Shown here piece after piece: positions 22,289-61,828 of a DNA stretch of 64,000 bases. The notes under the pieces were generated by a model. It worked only from the letters and a program-made list of their open reading frames with translations. It had not been told where the DNA came from and did no database searches. Location: contig NZ_CP090371.1 of NCBI RefSeq assembly GCF_021431925.1, positions 1,798,001 to 1,862,000 on the forward strand, written 5' to 3'. Each line of letters starts with the position of its first letter. The first letter of the stretch is position 1. A program made the translations under genes and the position numbers. The stretch comes from Halobaculum sp. CBA1158 (GTDB lineage: Archaea; Halobacteriota; Halobacteria; Halobacteriales; Haloferacaceae).

Positions 22289-22330
22289 GATCGGCCGATC
22301 GCTAAATGATATTTTAGCTGATACTTTTCC
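22289..22330 (+). promoter_or_regulatory. promoter of proteasome beta-like gene with two palindromes
   Basis: A 12-bp palindrome GATCGGCCGATC (22289-22300) is followed immediately by GCTAAA-N6-TTTAGC (22301-22318) and the T-rich ATACTTTTCC (22321-22330). The ATG is at 22353, 34 nt past the second palindrome. The TTTTAG arm or the ATACTTTT stretch could be the TATA box, so a factor bound here would control TBP access. The same arms and 6-nt spacer recur upstream of psmA. Confidence 0.6.
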
Positions 22331-22352: not shown

Positions 22353-23078
22353 ATGGACGGAACCACGGACGGCGAACTGTCGCTGGGAACGACTATCGTT
22401 GGGATCGTCGCCGACGGCGGCACCGAGGCAGACTCGACCGGACATCCGAACGAGGCGACCGACACTACCGGGCGTGCAAACGAGGCGGCCGACGCGGCCG
22501 GAACTGCGGATGAGAGCGCGGGCGCGGTCGTGCTGGCGTCGGATCGCCGCGCCAGTCTCGGCGGCATGGTGGCGAGCAAACGAGCCGAGAAGGTCTACCC
22601 GGTCGGCGACGCGGCGGCGCTGGCGTTCACCGGGTCGGTGTCCGGCGCGCAGGCGCTCGTGTCCGATCTGAACGCCGAGCGCCGCCTGTACGAACTCCGC
22701 AGGGGTCGCCGGATGTCGACGACTGCGCTGGCGGGGTACGCGGCGACCGAGATGCGCCGACAACAGTACGGCGTACAGCACCTGCTCGGCGGCGTCGACG
22801 ACGACGGCGCGCGCTTGTTCGCGTTCGACGCGGCCGGGTCGACCCTGGAGCAACCGTACGCGGCAGACGGATCGGGCGGCCAGGTCGCGTACGGAACCCT
22901 GGAAAACGGCTACGAGGAGGGCATCGGGGTCGGAGAGGCCGAGCGCCTCGCCGCGCGAGCGGTCGCCGCCGCGAGCGAGCGCGACACCGCCTCCGGGAAC
23001 GGACTGCAGCTCGTGACGGTCACGGCCGACGGCGTCGAGTCCGGAGTCTACGACGACCCCGCGGCCGTCGCCGCCTGA
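22353..23078 (+). CDS. divergent proteasome beta subunit-like Ntn hydrolase
   Basis: 241-residue protein with the proteasome beta fold. The propeptide is short: cleavage after LG at residues 11-12 would expose Thr13 (TTIVGIVAD). SDRRASLGG supplies the Asp17 equivalent at residue 64, and ASKRAEK the Lys33 region near residue 76. VAYGTLENGYEEGIGVGEAERLAARAVAAA is the C-terminal beta-subunit pattern. Unusually, about 34 Asp/Glu/Ala/Thr-rich residues (22-56) are inserted between the catalytic Thr strand and the Asp17 strand. The gene could encode an alternative 20S beta subunit or a stand-alone hydrolase. No standard psmB is in the window. Confidence 0.85.
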   Translation: MDGTTDGELSLGTTIVGIVADGGTEADSTGHPNEATDTTGRANEAADAAGTADESAGAVVLASDRRASLGGMVASKRAEKVYPVGDAAALAFTGSVSGAQALVSDLNAERRLYELRRGRRMSTTALAGYAATEMRRQQYGVQHLLGGVDDDGARLFAFDAAGSTLEQPYAADGSGGQVAYGTLENGYEEGIGVGEAERLAARAVAAASERDTASGNGLQLVTVTADGVESGVYDDPAAVAA

Positions 23079-24106
23079 TCACCGTCGCGGCCGGCCGCGT
23101 CGTCGCCCTCCGTGACCGCCGCGGCGTCGCCGTCGCGGAACCGGTCGGCGTCGACCACGGTCGGGCCGTCACCCACGAGCAGGCGCAGCGTCTCGCCGTC
23201 GCCGGCGACGGCGACGCGGACCGCCGGCGGGTCGGTCGACAACACCGTCTCCCCCCACTCCGGACCGATGTTCCAGATCCGTCGCTCTCGCGCGTCGATG
23301 CCGTGGTCGTCACAGAAGGCGATCACCGCCGGGTGTTCCGCGAGCGCGACGGAGACGGGCACGCGGACGGCGAAGTCGCACCGGACACACGTGCCCGCGA
23401 CGACCGGACGGGGGCCGCCGGTCGCCCCTTTCGTCCCGTCGCCGTCGTCGTCGTCGCCGGCGCTCTTGGCGTCGTCGCACTCGGCGTTGTCACCCCCGGC
23501 GTCGGGGATGCCGTCGGGGTCGACGAACTCGATCCGGCCCTCCGCCCGCCCGGCGCAGTCGGGACAGACGCCGTCAGCGAGCTGTCGCAGGCGGGCGCGG
23601 TGGTAGGCGTCGAAGGCCGCCAGCACCTCCTCGGTGTCGCGTCCGCGGGTCCCGCCGGGCGGGAACGGGAGCGCGAGCAGTTCCGTCGCGCAGTCGGTGC
23701 AGGCGACGGCGACGTAGTTGTCCGCGATCTGCGCCTCCAGCGACGCCGCGCCGCAGACGGGACAGTCGCCGTCGACCGCCTCCGGATCGCGGTCGACGCG
23801 CTCGGTGTAGACGCCCGCAGCGAGCGCGCGGGCGGTCTGTCGGCCGGCGAACGTCAGCCGGTAGCGCCCGTCGTCGTCGGTGTCGACGTAGCGGTCGTTC
23901 AACTGCCGGAGGTGGTAGGCGAACCCCGCGGAGGGACCGTCGGGGTCGTCGGCGACCCGCTCGAACAGCTCGGTGAAGCCCAGCGGTCGTTCGGCGGCCG
24001 CGAGCGTTCGGACCGTTCGCAGGCGCGTTCCGTCGGCGAGCGCCGCGAACGCGTCGTCGGCCCCGGCCTCAGCGTCCTCGAGTGGCTCGTCGTCGCGACC
24101 GGTCAT
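23048..24106 (-). CDS. HTH (ArsR-like) regulator with zinc-ribbon domain
   Basis: 352-residue protein. The N-terminal winged helix (about residues 20-95) has FAALADGTRLRTVRTLAAAERPLGFTEL and AFAYHLRQLNDRYVDT-like recognition helix. The rest carries several cysteine pairs (CPVCGAAS, ACTDCAT, CPDCAGRA, CVRCDFA) typical of haloarchaeal zinc-ribbon regulators, split by an acidic insert. The ATG at 24104-24106 has a CTTATCC box about 27 nt upstream. It converges on the proteasome beta-like gene with a 31-bp overlap of the 3' coding ends. Ligand and targets unknown. Confidence 0.87.
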   Translation of the reverse strand: MTGRDDEPLEDAEAGADDAFAALADGTRLRTVRTLAAAERPLGFTELFERVADDPDGPSAGFAYHLRQLNDRYVDTDDDGRYRLTFAGRQTARALAAGVYTERVDRDPEAVDGDCPVCGAASLEAQIADNYVAVACTDCATELLALPFPPGGTRGRDTEEVLAAFDAYHRARLRQLADGVCPDCAGRAEGRIEFVDPDGIPDAGGDNAECDDAKSAGDDDDGDGTKGATGGPRPVVAGTCVRCDFAVRVPVSVALAEHPAVIAFCDDHGIDARERRIWNIGPEWGETVLSTDPPAVRVAVAGDGETLRLLVGDGPTVVDADRFRDGDAAAVTEGDDAAGRDGDQAATAAGSS

Positions 24107-24277
24107 ATCCCACCTGAGCCCCGGCGCGGATAAGAAGCTGTCCCGGGTGCGTCCCCGGTTCGGAGTCTCGCCGCCGCGGAGCGGTGTTGCCACAGATCGT
24201 CGCAATCGCCGCAAGTCGTCGCGACCGCCGTCCGGTCCGCCCCTAACGTTACTACCGTCGCGCCCGTGGCCGGTTTC

Positions 24278-25870
24278 ATGCGACTGTTCTGGCACAGGCG
24301 GGACCTACGCGTCGCCGATAACCTCGGGCTCGCGGCCGCGGTCGATGCCGCCGCGAGGAGGGACCCCGACGCGGACGGCGACACCGAGGCGGACGGCGGC
24401 ACCGTCGCGAGGGACGACACCGACGCGGACGGCGACGGCGACTCCGAAGGCACCGGCGACGGCGCGGTCCTGCCGGTGTTCGTGTTCGACGACGACGTGC
24501 TGGCGCACGGGTCGAACCCGCGAGTCCGATTCATGCTCGACGCGCTGGCGGAGCTGCGCGACGAGTACCGCGAGCGCGACTCGGACCTCGTCCTCGCCCG
24601 CGGCGACCCCGCCGAGGTGCTCCCCGACCTCGCGGCCGAACACGACGCCGAGGCGGTCGTCTGGAACGAGGACTACTCCGGGCTGGCCCGCGAGCGCGAC
24701 GCCCGCGTCCGGATGGCGCTCGACGACGCCGGGATCGACCGCGAGACGCACCACGACGCCGTCCACCACGAACCGGGAACGATCACGACGAACGACGGCG
24801 ACCCGTACTCGGTGTTCACCTACTTCGGGCGGAAGTGGCACGATCGGGAGAAGGACGACCCGGTCGATCCGCCCGCTGCCGCCGACCTCGTCGAGAGGGA
24901 GGCCCTCGAGGGGTCGGCCGGCGATCCCCCGACGATCGGCGACCTTCCGACGATAGACGACCTCGGGTTCGCCGAGCCCGAGGCGGACGTGCAGGCCGCC
25001 GGCACCGCCGCGGCTCGCGAGCGCCTCGCCGCGTTCTGCGAGGACGCCATCTTCGGCTACGAGGAGGATCGCGACTACCCGGCTCGGGACGCGACCTCTC
25101 GTCTGTCGACCGATCTCAAGTGGGGGACGATCGGCGTCCGTGAGGTGTACGCGGCGACCGAGGACGCGATGCGCGAGGCCGAGGCGCGCGACGAGGGGCG
25201 CGACGGGACACCCGCCGTCGACGCCGTCGAGGAGTTCCGGTCCCAGCTGGCGTGGCGGGAGTTCTACACGCAGGTGCTGTGGGCCAATCCCGAGGTCGTG
25301 ACGGCGAACTACAAGGAGTACGAGCGGGAGATCGGGTGGCGAGACGGCGACGACGCGATGGCCGACCTTGAGGCGTGGAAGGAGGGCCGGACCGGCTACC
25401 CGATCGTCGACGCCGGGATGCGCCAACTGCGCGAGGAGGCGTACATGCACAACCGCGTGCGGATGATCGTCGCCAGCTTCCTCACGAAGGACCTGCTGAT
25501 CGACTGGCGACACGGCTACGACCACTTCAGGGAGCGCCTCGCCGACCACGACACCGCCAACGACAACGGCGGGTGGCAGTGGGCCGCCTCGACCGGCACG
25601 GACGCCCAGCCGTACTTCCGGATCTTCAACCCCATGACGCAGGGCGAGCGCTACGACCCCGACGCCGAGTACATCAAGCGGTACGTGCCGGAGTTGGATG
25701 GGGTCTCACCCGAGAACGTCCACTCCTGGCACGAGCTGTCGGTCGGTCGACGGCGACAGCTCGCCCCCGAGTACCCCGACCCGATCGTCGAACACGCCGA
25801 GATGCGCGAGGCCGCGATCTCGATGTTCGAGCGCGCCCGCGGCGACGACGAGGCCGCCGACGCCGACTGA
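24278..25870 (+). CDS. phr: deoxyribodipyrimidine photolyase (cryptochrome/photolyase family)
   Basis: 530-residue FAD enzyme that reverses UV-induced pyrimidine dimers with light. N-terminal antenna domain begins MRLFWHRRDLRVADN; the FAD-binding domain has YPARDATSRLSTDLKWGTIGVREVY, AWREFYTQVLW, TGYPIVDAGMRQL, MHNRVRMIVASFLTKDLLIDW and DNDNGGWQWAASTGTDAQPYFRIFNP-like signatures of class I CPD photolyases. Residues 27-63 form an Asp/Gly-rich low-complexity insertion within the antenna domain. ATG 24278 starts exactly at the family N-terminus. Confidence 0.95.
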   Translation: MRLFWHRRDLRVADNLGLAAAVDAAARRDPDADGDTEADGGTVARDDTDADGDGDSEGTGDGAVLPVFVFDDDVLAHGSNPRVRFMLDALAELRDEYRERDSDLVLARGDPAEVLPDLAAEHDAEAVVWNEDYSGLARERDARVRMALDDAGIDRETHHDAVHHEPGTITTNDGDPYSVFTYFGRKWHDREKDDPVDPPAAADLVEREALEGSAGDPPTIGDLPTIDDLGFAEPEADVQAAGTAAARERLAAFCEDAIFGYEEDRDYPARDATSRLSTDLKWGTIGVREVYAATEDAMREAEARDEGRDGTPAVDAVEEFRSQLAWREFYTQVLWANPEVVTANYKEYEREIGWRDGDDAMADLEAWKEGRTGYPIVDAGMRQLREEAYMHNRVRMIVASFLTKDLLIDWRHGYDHFRERLADHDTANDNGGWQWAASTGTDAQPYFRIFNPMTQGERYDPDAEYIKRYVPELDGVSPENVHSWHELSVGRRRQLAPEYPDPIVEHAEMREAAISMFERARGDDEAADAD

Positions 25871-28068: not shown

Positions 28069-28668
28069 ATGAGCTACGAACTGGATCCGCTGCCGTACGA
28101 CTACGACGCGCTCGAACCGCACATCTCCGAACAGGTGCTCACGTGGCATCACGACACCCATCACCAGGGCTACGTCAACGGCTGGAACTCCGCCGAGGAG
28201 ACGCTGGAGGAGAACCGCGAAGCCGGTGACTTCGGCTCGTCTGCGGGTGCAATCCGCGACGTGACGCACAACTCCTCGGGCCACATCCTGCACGACCTGT
28301 TCTGGCAGAACATGAGCCCCGAGGGCGGCGACGAGCCCTCCGGCGCGCTCGCCGACCGCATCGAAGAAGACTTCGGTTCGTACGACGCCTGGAAGGGCGA
28401 GTTCGAGGCTGCTGCCGGCAACGCCTCCGGCTGGGCGCTGCTCGTCTACGACACGTTCTCGAATCAGCTCCGTAACGTGGTCGTCGACAAGCACGACCAG
28501 GGCGCGATCTGGGGCGGCCACCCGATCCTCGCGCTGGACGTGTGGGAGCACTCCTACTACTACGACTACGGCCCCGCACGCGGCGACTTCGTCTCCGCGT
28601 TCTTCGAAGTCGTCGACTGGGACGAACCCAGCGACCGCTACGAGCAGGCCGTCCAGCTCTTCGAGTAA
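28069..28668 (+). CDS. sod: superoxide dismutase (Fe/Mn type), copy 1
   Basis: 199-residue cytoplasmic Fe/Mn-family superoxide dismutase converting superoxide to peroxide and oxygen. Metal ligands appear in order: His in LTWHHDTHHQGYVN, His in HNSSGHILHDLFW, and Asp/His in ALDVWEHSYYYDYGP. Length and motifs are full. The protein differs from copy 2 (61229-61828) at only 4 residues: three near residues 51-56 and one Asp/Glu near 106. The nucleotide pattern is mosaic. It is divergent from the MFS gene. Confidence 0.97.
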   Translation: MSYELDPLPYDYDALEPHISEQVLTWHHDTHHQGYVNGWNSAEETLEENREAGDFGSSAGAIRDVTHNSSGHILHDLFWQNMSPEGGDEPSGALADRIEEDFGSYDAWKGEFEAAAGNASGWALLVYDTFSNQLRNVVVDKHDQGAIWGGHPILALDVWEHSYYYDYGPARGDFVSAFFEVVDWDEPSDRYEQAVQLFE

Positions 28669-33245: not shown

Positions 33246-34274
33246 GTGAAGCGATCCGGACTCGCGACCGTCGCGGTGTGCCTGCTGCTCGCGCTCTCGG
33301 GGTGCGTCGTCGGTCCCGTCGGCAGCGACCCCGCCGGCGACGCGACCGGCGGCGGCCCGGGCGACCCCACCGCGACCGCGCCGCCGGGTTCGGACGCCAC
33401 CCACGCCACCGCCTCGATTCCGGCTGACGGGACCGAGGTGACCGTCGTCGAGGTCGTCGACGGCGACACGGTCCGGATCGAGTACGACAACGGGACGACC
33501 GACACCGCGCGCCTGCTCGGCGTCGACACGCCCGAGGTGTACGGCGAGAACAGCCCCGAGGAGTTCGAGGGCGTCCCCGACACCGAGGCGGGGCGGGCCT
33601 GCCTCGACGAGTACGCCGACCGCGCCAGCGCCTACGCGAAGAACCGCCTGCTCGGCGAGCGGGTGACGATCGGCTTCGACGCCAACGAGCCCCGGCGCGG
33701 CTACTACGACCGCCTGCTCGTGTACGTCCACCACGACGGCGGGTCGTTCAACTACGCGCTGGTCGACCGCGGGCTCGCTCGCGTGTACGACTCCTCCTTC
33801 GAGCGCGGCGAGACGTTCTACGCCGCCGAGGAGCGCGCGATGAGCGACGGTCGCGGGCTGTGGTCGTGTCGCGACGGCACCCCCCGTCCCGCGGCCGACG
33901 ACGAGACGACCGCGACCGCGTCTGCGACGGCGACGCCCGAGGGCGACGGCGTGGTCGTCTCGCGGATCCACGCCGACGCCGAGGGCGACGACGCGGAGAA
34001 CCTGAACGACGAGTACGTCGTCCTCACCAACCGCGGCGACGAGTCGGTCGACCTCTCGGGATGGACGCTGGAGGACGCCGCGGGCTTCACCTACGAGTTC
34101 CCCGAGGGAACGACGATCGACGCCGGCGCGTCGCTCACTGTCCACGTGGGGCAGGGAGCGGACACCGAGACGGATCTCTACTGGGGTCGCGAGCGCCCGA
34201 CGCTCAACAACGACGGCGAGACGGTGACGATCCGGGACGCGAGCGGAGCAGTCGTCGCCGAGCGGTCGACGTGA
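33246..34274 (+). CDS. secreted lipoprotein with thermonuclease and lamin-tail domains
   Basis: 342-residue exported protein. The N-terminus KRSGLATVAVCLLLALSGC is a Sec signal with lipobox LSGC (Cys near residue 20), then a Gly/Ala/Thr-rich spacer. A staphylococcal nuclease-like domain (about 60-205) has VEVVDGDTVRIEY, LLGVDTPEVYG, FDANEPRRGYYDRLLVYV and ALVDRGLARVY. A C-terminal lamin-tail domain (about 235-340) has NLNDEYVVLTNRGDESVDLSGWTLEDAAG. It probably degrades extracellular DNA at the cell surface. The GTG at 33246 is the only start before the signal peptide. Confidence 0.92.
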   Translation: MKRSGLATVAVCLLLALSGCVVGPVGSDPAGDATGGGPGDPTATAPPGSDATHATASIPADGTEVTVVEVVDGDTVRIEYDNGTTDTARLLGVDTPEVYGENSPEEFEGVPDTEAGRACLDEYADRASAYAKNRLLGERVTIGFDANEPRRGYYDRLLVYVHHDGGSFNYALVDRGLARVYDSSFERGETFYAAEERAMSDGRGLWSCRDGTPRPAADDETTATASATATPEGDGVVVSRIHADAEGDDAENLNDEYVVLTNRGDESVDLSGWTLEDAAGFTYEFPEGTTIDAGASLTVHVGQGADTETDLYWGRERPTLNNDGETVTIRDASGAVVAERST

Positions 34275-35197: not shown

Positions 35198-35228
35198 GCT
35201 AAAGCTCCGTTTAGGGAGGGTTTTTCCC
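35198..35228 (+). promoter_or_regulatory. psmA promoter with inverted repeat shared with the beta-like gene
   Basis: GCTAAA-N6-TTTAGG (35198-35215) is followed by GGGTTTTTCCC (about 35218-35228). The first ATG downstream is at 35252, 36 nt past the repeat, and psmA begins at 35293. Arms, spacer and distance match 22301-22318 in front of the proteasome beta-like gene. The TTTAGG arm may itself be the TATA box. Confidence 0.6.
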
Positions 35229-35251: not shown

Positions 35252-35296
35252 ATGACCGAACTCGCGACGACGATTCACGTCGGTGGTGGCCGATGA
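35252..35296 (+). CDS. 14-codon upstream ORF overlapping psmA
   Basis: ATG at 35252 opens a 14-residue frame (MTELATTIHVGGGR) that ends in TGA at 35294-35296, overlapping the psmA ATG by 4 nt (ATGA). It lies at the expected position for the first start codon after the promoter. It may couple or limit psmA translation. Whether the peptide is made is unknown, and it could simply be a chance frame in the leader. Confidence 0.35.
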   Translation: MTELATTIHVGGGR

Positions 35297-36090
35297 GAGG
35301 CAACGATCAGCAGGCGTACGACCGCGGTACGTCGCTGTTCTCGCCGGACGGCCGGATCTACCAGGTCGAGTACGCCCGCGAGGCCGTCTCTCGTGGCGCT
35401 CCCTCCGTCGGGGTCCGCACGAGCGAGGGCGTGGTCCTCGCCGCACAGGCGCAGGCGTCCTCCAGCCTGATGGAGTCGGAGTCGATCGAGAAGCTCCACA
35501 AGCTCGACGACCACGTCGGCACAGCCAGCGCCGGCCACGTCGCCGACGCCCGACAGCTCATCGACCAGGCGCGCCGGATGGCACAGGGCAACCGCCTGCG
35601 CTACCAGGAGCCCGTCGGTGTCGAGACGCTGACGAAGTACGTCACCGACCACATCCAGGAGAACACCCAGCGCGGCGGCACCCGTCCCTACGGCGCGGCG
35701 CTGCTCATCGGCGGCATCGAGAACGGCCGCCCGCGCCTGTTCGGCGCTGACCCCTCGGGCACGCCCCACGAGTGGAAGGCGACCGCCATCGGCGGGTCGC
35801 GACAGGAGATCCAGGAGCTGCTCGAGGAGGAGTGGACCGAGGAGCTCACGCTCGACGACGGGATCTCCCTGGCGCTGCGCGCGCTGTTCGAGGCGAACGA
35901 CGAACTCACCGCCGCCGACCTCTCGGTCGCGACCGTCGCCGAGTCGGGGTACGACTCCTTCACCGCCGACGAGATCGCCGACCTCGTCGAGAGCCTCGGA
36001 CTGGGCTCCGACGACGATGACGAGACGACCGACGACGAGGCGGACGCCGGCGGCGCAGACGACGCTGACGACGCGGACGACGAGGAGTAA
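35293..36090 (+). CDS. psmA: proteasome alpha subunit
   Basis: 265-residue structural subunit of the 20S proteasome, forming the outer rings that gate substrate entry. The alpha signature YDRGTSLFSPDGRIYQVEYAREAV is at the N-terminus, followed by GVVLAAQAQASSSLMES and GTRPYGAALLIGGIENGRPRLFGADPSG. The last 30 residues are an Asp/Glu-rich tail. The motif for activator docking is not obvious because of this tail. The gene is preceded by a short overlapping ORF and a palindrome-containing promoter, and stands alone. Confidence 0.97.
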   Translation: MRGNDQQAYDRGTSLFSPDGRIYQVEYAREAVSRGAPSVGVRTSEGVVLAAQAQASSSLMESESIEKLHKLDDHVGTASAGHVADARQLIDQARRMAQGNRLRYQEPVGVETLTKYVTDHIQENTQRGGTRPYGAALLIGGIENGRPRLFGADPSGTPHEWKATAIGGSRQEIQELLEEEWTEELTLDDGISLALRALFEANDELTAADLSVATVAESGYDSFTADEIADLVESLGLGSDDDDETTDDEADAGGADDADDADDEE

Positions 36091-61228: not shown

Positions 61229-61828
61229 ATGAGCTACGAACTGGATCCGCTGCCGTACGACTACGACGCGCTCGAACCGCACATCTCCGAACAGGTGCTC
61301 ACGTGGCATCACGACACCCATCACCAGGGCTACGTCAACGGCTGGAACTCCGCCGAGGAGACCCTCGAAGAGAATCGAGACGAGGGCGATTTCTCATCGT
61401 CTGCGGGCGCGATCCGCGACGTGACGCACAACTCCTCGGGCCACATCCTGCACGACCTGTTCTGGCAGAACATGAGCCCCGAGGGCGGCGACGAGCCGTC
61501 GGGTGCACTCGCCGACCGCATCGAAGAAGACTTCGGCTCCTACGAGGCCTGGAAGGGCGAGTTCGAGGCCGCCGCCGGCAACGCCTCCGGCTGGGCCCTG
61601 CTCGTGTACGACACCTTCAGCAACCAACTGCGGAACGTGGTCGTCGACAAGCACGACCAGGGCGCGATCTGGGGCGGCCACCCGATCCTCGCGCTGGACG
61701 TGTGGGAGCACTCCTACTACTACGACTACGGCCCCGCACGCGGCGACTTCGTCTCCGCGTTCTTCGAAGTCGTCGACTGGGACGAACCCAGCGACCGCTA
61801 CGAGCAGGCCGTCCAGCTCTTCGAGTAG
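61229..61828 (+). CDS. sod: superoxide dismutase (Fe/Mn type), copy 2
   Basis: 199-residue paralogue of the gene at 28069-28668, differing at four residues (ENRDEGDFSS for ENREAGDFGS, and YEAW for YDAW). All metal ligands are retained. The first 134 and last 194 nt before the stop are identical to copy 1; the middle 271 nt carry 34 differences, mostly synonymous. It lacks the GGAGGT leader of copy 1 and has its own promoter. Confidence 0.97.
   Translation: MSYELDPLPYDYDALEPHISEQVLTWHHDTHHQGYVNGWNSAEETLEENRDEGDFSSSAGAIRDVTHNSSGHILHDLFWQNMSPEGGDEPSGALADRIEEDFGSYEAWKGEFEAAAGNASGWALLVYDTFSNQLRNVVVDKHDQGAIWGGHPILALDVWEHSYYYDYGPARGDFVSAFFEVVDWDEPSDRYEQAVQLFE

Follow-up and report, generated by a model that had tools for sequence, protein, structure and literature searches.

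Why does a haloarchaeon that already has a standard proteasome beta gene (psmB) carry a second one, and why does the product hold so many residues between its catalytic threonine and aspartate? The locus that raises this question lies in a 64,000-nt stretch of Halobaculum sp. CBA1158 DNA (NZ_CP090371.1, positions 1,798,001 to 1,862,000), hereafter the window, and encodes a protein, beta2, that an earlier note on this DNA had read as a proteasome beta paralogue with an acidic insertion beside the active site. Our analysis suggests, with a probability of roughly 0.68, that beta2 and the alpha subunit encoded 13 kb away (alpha2) would form a second 20S core particle, produced as a co-regulated regulon beside the housekeeping alpha1/psmB proteasome. 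This reading draws on sequence comparisons and centers on a palindrome (CTAAA-N6-TTTAG) that the two promoters share:

22302–22317, palindromic: CTAAATGATATTTTAG, candidate operator upstream of beta2 and one of two exact CTAAA-N6-TTTAG places in the genome
22323–22328, plus strand: TATA-like element ACTTTT, 6 nt past the beta2 palindrome, with a presumed promoter function from its fixed spacing
22353–23078, plus strand: beta2, a proteasome beta-type subunit of 241 amino acids (PF00227), with a model pLDDT (predicted local distance difference test) of 83 and the fold of 20S beta chains
35199–35214, palindromic: CTAAAGCTCCGTTTAG, upstream of alpha2, the second exact place in the genome, 94 nt ahead of the ATG
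35221–35225, plus strand: TATA-like run TTTTT, 6 nt past the alpha2 palindrome, with a presumed promoter function from its spacing
35293–36090, plus strand: alpha2, a psmC-type proteasome alpha subunit of 265 amino acids, assigned by the NCBIfam alpha model and its place in the alpha2 clade

The exact palindrome occurs twice in the 3.3-Mb genome, once ahead of each gene, and allowing one mismatch adds three places versus 13 for a backwards control. A palindrome common only to beta2 and an alpha gene supports the idea, raised in the earlier note, of a specialised proteasome. Furthermore, all 13 exact palindromes in the 11 congeneric genomes precede alpha2 or beta2. Among the 148 family genomes searched, 14 yielded a beta2 orthologue (5 of the 11 genomes in the window's genus and 9 in other genera), and the palindrome is present in 13 of 13 beta2 promoters (12 exact and one with one mismatch), 51–55 nt before the start and 6–7 nt before a TATA-like element; the fourteenth gene (G054), whose upstream DNA is cut by a contig end, is left out of this count. 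The spacing between palindrome and TATA-like element is fixed across the beta2, alpha2 and operon promoters (the last are described below), and the alpha1 and psmB promoters show background only, with at least three mismatches to the palindrome. The conserved stretch ahead of beta2 could also be read in frame as a peptide (ILADTY), but we discarded this reading; the stretch is the palindrome plus the TATA-like element and also stands before alpha2 and the operons.

The alpha2 promoter could be read in 73 family genomes, after three further regions without a start had been dropped. All 14 genomes with a separate (split) beta2 gene carry the palindrome at alpha2, between −91 and −103 and with no more than one mismatch, versus 6 of 58 genomes without beta2 (Fisher p 1.3e-10, uncorrected for shared ancestry). 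Letter-shuffled alpha2 promoters reached one mismatch in 0.1% of cases. The six positives without beta2 belong to the window's genus (five) and to genus g10 (one), both of which also include beta2 species. The palindrome of a fifteenth positive genome (G044) stands before a beta-alpha operon that belongs to another lineage, and the alpha2 gene of this genome has no site.

The palindrome was also searched in 392 genomes across the order and in the 148 genomes of the family. One exact 16-mer, CTAAAATATATTTTAG, recurs in families f17 and f4 among the matches listed from the order-wide search and in f1 in the family search. All 22 places examined precede a beta gene, which is then followed by an alpha gene in 21; the single place without a beta-alpha pair is in Halobium salinum, which has the split form. 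Near forms of the palindrome stand at two further operons (G228 and G373), and two extra loci with other palindrome forms have no proteasome gene. These observations allow a broader proposal, which we advance tentatively and at somewhat below even odds: haloarchaea of at least three families may have a second-proteasome regulon in which one operator (CTAAA-N6-TTTAG) and one clade of regulators (DUF7347/DUF7351) control a matched alpha and beta. The two genes would form a beta-alpha operon or, as in the Halobaculum group, stand apart and each keep the operator. Separately, we observed at least one exact palindrome in 18 of the 19 sampled genomes of genus g34 (family f7). We also noted a tandem alpha-beta pair (L204:1-1240; genome G069, contig C286) whose beta branches at the base of the operon clade; the contig breaks off in the DNA upstream of this pair.

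A rival explanation takes the palindrome for a general promoter element or a chance match, with beta2 an optional paralogue that has no programme of its own. A degenerate form of the pattern does occur by chance in 46 of the 148 haloarchaeal genomes, with similar control counts in many, and congeners without beta2 retain the palindrome at alpha2. Chance matches would not, however, be expected to stand before proteasome genes at both places in the window genome, at every exact site in the genus and at every examined place of one 16-mer in three families, or to keep a fixed distance to TATA-like elements. We therefore consider this rival very improbable.

The candidate regulator is encoded by the gene (w19) that converges on beta2:

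23048–24295, minus strand: w19, with DUF7347 (a probable ArsR-like winged helix-turn-helix, HTH) and DUF7351 (zinc-ribbon-like) domains by Pfam; the start is uncertain and the core spans 23051–24100

The HTH_20 profile matches three of four DUF7347 members tested (best E 8.1e-05) and the window member weakly (0.098). The protein also has a weak match to an ArsR structure (E 0.18), its fold search returned nothing significant with a model of pLDDT 62 as the query, and CxxC pairs are conserved in the DUF7351 part of the family. Linkage to beta2 is tight: a w19 homologue adjoins beta2 in all 13 other beta2 loci, and homologues above 200 bits were found in 14 of the 148 genomes, comprising 13 of the 14 beta2 genomes and G044, with the best match beyond them at 145 bits. 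Of the 14 operon loci, 13 have a homologue on the side of the alpha gene, at a distance of up to about 2 kb. The 27 proteasome-linked homologues form one clade (support 100/100) apart from 16 family paralogues. The photolyase gene comes immediately after mptE in all six congeners that lack beta2, and no sign of either beta2 or the HTH gene was seen there; this joint absence from a clean empty site suggests that the two genes are gained or lost together. The tree was too poorly resolved to read the history of beta2 loss in the genus.

Two candidate links at this locus were rejected. Self-control of the HTH gene via the palindrome found no support, as no further window site lies within one mismatch, and the nearby photolyase and superoxide dismutase genes are unspecific neighbors that are kept in genomes without beta2. 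The 3′ ends of beta2 and w19 overlap by 31 nt (23048–23078). In one congener without beta2 (G103:C1:587202-587878; L197, L201), the mptE match is divided into two overlapping segments that lie in different frames, which suggests a frameshift or sequencing error.

We propose that beta2 and alpha2 would be transcribed under the same palindrome, located 6–7 nt upstream of their TATA-like elements, and that the convergent, presumably ArsR-like HTH protein is its likely binder. By binding both palindromes, this protein could make beta2 and alpha2 rise together in response to a signal that is probably stress-related. On assembly, beta2 would be cleaved before Thr13 and would use the usual Thr1-Asp17-Lys33 chemistry.

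Several observations weigh against this reading of the palindrome and its partners. Other versions of the pattern adjoin proteasome genes in 13 of 29 family loci and 14 of 30 order loci listed, and the degenerate pattern stands away from proteasome genes at 16 of 29 family loci and 16 of 30 listed order loci. Of the six congeners that lack both beta2 and the HTH gene, five retain the alpha2 palindrome with at most one mismatch (G103 has lost it), so the site may have another binder or the loss of the pair may be recent. One genome (G055) has beta2, yet only the C-terminal part of an HTH gene could be read. Furthermore, beta2 and the operon betas fall in separate clades, so the operator would join different beta lineages; a single clade was not rejected by the approximately unbiased (AU) test (p 0.309), which left one origin of the two groups neither shown nor rejected. 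Lastly, the case for a distinct specificity depends on position 45 of beta2 (below), which we take to be a residue of the S1 pocket.

The protein itself has the features of an active beta subunit. Its PF00227 score is 129–130 bits, against a Pfam gathering score of 22.4, and the catalytic elements are all in place, both those named in the earlier note, Thr13 (T1), Asp64 (D17) and the region of Lys76 (K29), and Arg66 (R19) and Lys80 (K33), in what we take to be the numbering of the mature subunit. These five residues are unchanged in all 14 beta2 proteins, and the Gly12-Thr13 junction is unchanged in the alignment that shows the insert. The GSG and RDTASG motifs are both present; the one departure is a Thr in place of Ser in the GSG motif of the G054 protein. 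Ratios of nonsynonymous to synonymous substitution rates (dN/dS) lie between 0.16 and 0.22 for nine of the ten congener pairs and at 0.03 for the tenth, which indicates that the beta2 core is under purifying selection. The conserved promoter element stands at a fixed 51 nt from the beta2 start in five of five congeners. This supports the start position and the retention of Thr13, and contradicts the loss of the threonine by an alternative start that the earlier note had entertained. Taken together, the sequence features predict a catalytically competent enzyme.

A comparison with the other proteasome genes of the genome (3.32 Mb, 4 contigs) indicates that beta2 is a distinct paralogue. The genome has four PF00227 genes, which are alpha2, beta2 and two others:

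C1:1460095: alpha1
C1:1986141: standard psmB, the gene that the earlier note had proposed to look for, with a longer propeptide than beta2

The NCBIfam model of canonical archaeal beta subunits (TIGR03634, cut-off 224 bits) gives psmB 254 bits and beta2 181. All five beta2 proteins tested fall below the cut-off, whether they have the insert described below (181 and 182 bits) or not (210, 197 and 172), consistent with a paralogue distinct from psmB. Beta2 proteins form one clade (support 100/99) on a long branch distinct from psmB, and 12 near-fixed positions separate the two groups. At position 45, for example, all 14 beta2 proteins have Phe and all 12 psmB proteins have Ile, a substitution in the presumed S1 pocket that could have changed the cleavage preference.

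Alternatively, beta2 may mix with psmB in a heteromeric beta ring and tune its cleavage, the palindrome merely timing its expression with that of alpha2. Mixtures of alpha1, alpha2 and beta have been reported in Haloferax volcanii in the available text of PMC6267482. In the operons of other genomes, each beta has an alpha of its own under this palindrome, which favors a matched set, and the long branch of beta2 also sets it apart from psmB. For these reasons we regard a mixed ring as unlikely.

Nor do the data support the stand-alone hydrolase outside the 20S barrel that the earlier note had offered as its other option. The short propeptide (12 residues) and the score of 181 bits under the cut-off could be taken in its favor. 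However, an AlphaFold2 model built with 30 sequences (pLDDT 83, predicted template modelling score 0.81) has the proteasome fold, and its top Foldseek matches (6bdf_1, E 4.4e-17) and the solved chains closest in sequence are archaeal 20S beta subunits. A structural comparison (VIA) gave Z 28.4 and a root-mean-square deviation of 2.1 over 189 residues, and a profile search with the NCBIfam HslV models returned no match at 0.001. The model also has the two helices after S4 (96–117 and 123–136); the monomeric connectase lacks H1-H2 according to the available text of a survey of proteasome homologs (PMC8665760). With the palindrome and operons also tying beta genes to alpha genes, we give a stand-alone enzyme hardly any credence, and a second 20S core built from alpha2 and beta2 remains the preferred reading.

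The second part of the question concerns the N-terminal region of beta2, which includes the following features:

22353–22388, plus strand: presumed propeptide of 12 residues ahead of catalytic Thr13, from the alignment; its cleavage is predicted
22419–22523, plus strand: 35-residue insert at the S1-S2 turn (residues 23–57), from the alignment, with pLDDT below 50 for residues 28–51
22431–22520, plus strand: three imperfect 30-nt (10-residue) repeats in the insert, from a repeat finder (first two copies) and codon shuffles

The distance from T1 to D17 is 51 residues in beta2 versus 16 in psmB of the same genome, so the long gap reported earlier is real and amounts to 35 extra residues rather than about 34. 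AlphaFold2 places residues 28–51 between strands 14–21 (S1) and 58–64 (S2), consistent with a predicted disordered loop. Since Thr1 begins S1, the loop would leave at the far end of this eight-residue strand; the model thus gives no support to the earlier placement of the insert beside the active site, at the substrate channel or at a beta-beta contact. The selection on the core and the modeled position of the loop suggest that the insert is more than chance.

At this turn, all five beta2-bearing congeners have additional residues (35, 35, 30, 26 and 17), in loops that abound in D, E, G, T and A and contain no more than one large hydrophobic residue. The nine beta2 proteins from other genera have an ordinary turn, so the loop is not needed for the fold. 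The earlier note had also considered that orthologues might lack the insert and that this copy might be a pseudogene: the insert is indeed absent outside the genus, but we found no pseudogene signs in the reading frame, catalytic residues or dN/dS of beta2. The insert includes the units DSTGHPNEAT, DTTGRANEAA and DAAGTADESA, with pairwise identities of 23, 17 and 18 of 30 nt, a sum reached by none of 20,000 codon shuffles. A long tandem array was rejected, as Tandem Repeats Finder returned only a 20-nt row with a 9-nt period; so was a sequencing or frame artefact, given that loops recur in five of five congeners with the frame intact. The insert is acidic, as described earlier, with a net acid excess of about 0.22 per residue (0.11–0.24 across the five congeners), but this is special only in part, since window genes range from 0 to 0.22. 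The loop is probably the product of a repeat expansion at the S1-S2 turn at the level of the genus, modeled away from the nucleophile. It shows that a beta subunit can accommodate no fewer than 35 added residues at this turn, a possible tagging site.

Extra proteasome genes in haloarchaea are already known. In the available text of PMC2910475 and PMC6267482, H. volcanii has alpha1 (PsmA), alpha2 (PsmC) and a single beta (PsmB), and its subunit composition shifts with growth phase. Levels of the alpha2 subunit increase in stationary phase, and cells whose particles are all of the alpha2-beta type tolerate hypochlorite better (PMC2910475, PMC6267482), making a stress role for alpha2-beta2 a reasonable guess. 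Residues 12–21 of the window alpha2 (GTSLFSPDGR) are the peptide reported for H. volcanii alpha2 in these sources; unlike the one-beta system described there, the window genome has a second beta that shares a palindrome with alpha2. Natrialba magadii resembles our organism in having a second full alpha and beta set, an operon (Nmag_0515-0514) beside separate alpha and beta genes (PMC3403918). The window alpha2 and beta2 are instead 13 kb apart, and the available text of that paper makes no mention of a control site or regulator.

Diversification of the proteasome fold by insertions is also described in the survey by Fuchs et al. (2021), whose available text covers HslV, Anbu, BPH, connectase, PHI, PMI and others (PMC8665760). 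Compared with these homologs, beta2 lies much nearer to true archaeal beta subunits. The insertion sites named there are the N terminus, S3/S4, after H1/H2, H3/H4 and the C terminus; S1/S2 is not among them. If our reading holds, the Halobaculum proteasome would be decorated by disordered loops at a site that the text of the survey does not name.

The mammalian immunoproteasome offers a further parallel. Its alternative catalytic subunits are made as a set under a common signal, three beta subunits being swapped into the same alpha ring. The proposed production of alternative subunits as a set is similar, although in Halobaculum an alpha is linked with the beta and the regulators are unrelated. 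The second-proteasome regulon would then be a prokaryotic counterpart of an inducible proteasome, with a catalytic specificity of its own (Phe45). In the literature searched we found no report of the palindrome operator, the regulator clade, the split arrangement or the S1-S2 loop, and no mention of DUF7347 or DUF7351. Extra archaeal proteasome subunits are common and their effect on proteolysis is mostly unknown, according to the available text of a 2026 review (PMC13022661). A control site tying one alpha to one beta, an adjoining candidate regulator and relatives with a clean loss make the role of such extra subunits testable in terms of the particle formed, its timing and its substrates, and the palindrome would predict alpha-beta partnerships from DNA alone.

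We also identified features with no evident relation to beta2. Two weak PF00227 homologues in other genomes (G006:C11:562713-563219, 78 bits; G019:C68:4136-4651, 60 bits) are neither alpha nor beta by score and are perhaps other proteasome-like hydrolases. Upstream of alpha2 lies a gene (33246–34274) with staphylococcal-nuclease-like and lamin-tail domains. Finally, the window has two Fe/Mn superoxide dismutase genes (28069–28668 and 61229–61828) that are identical at 565 of 600 nt, consistent with a recent duplication or gene conversion.
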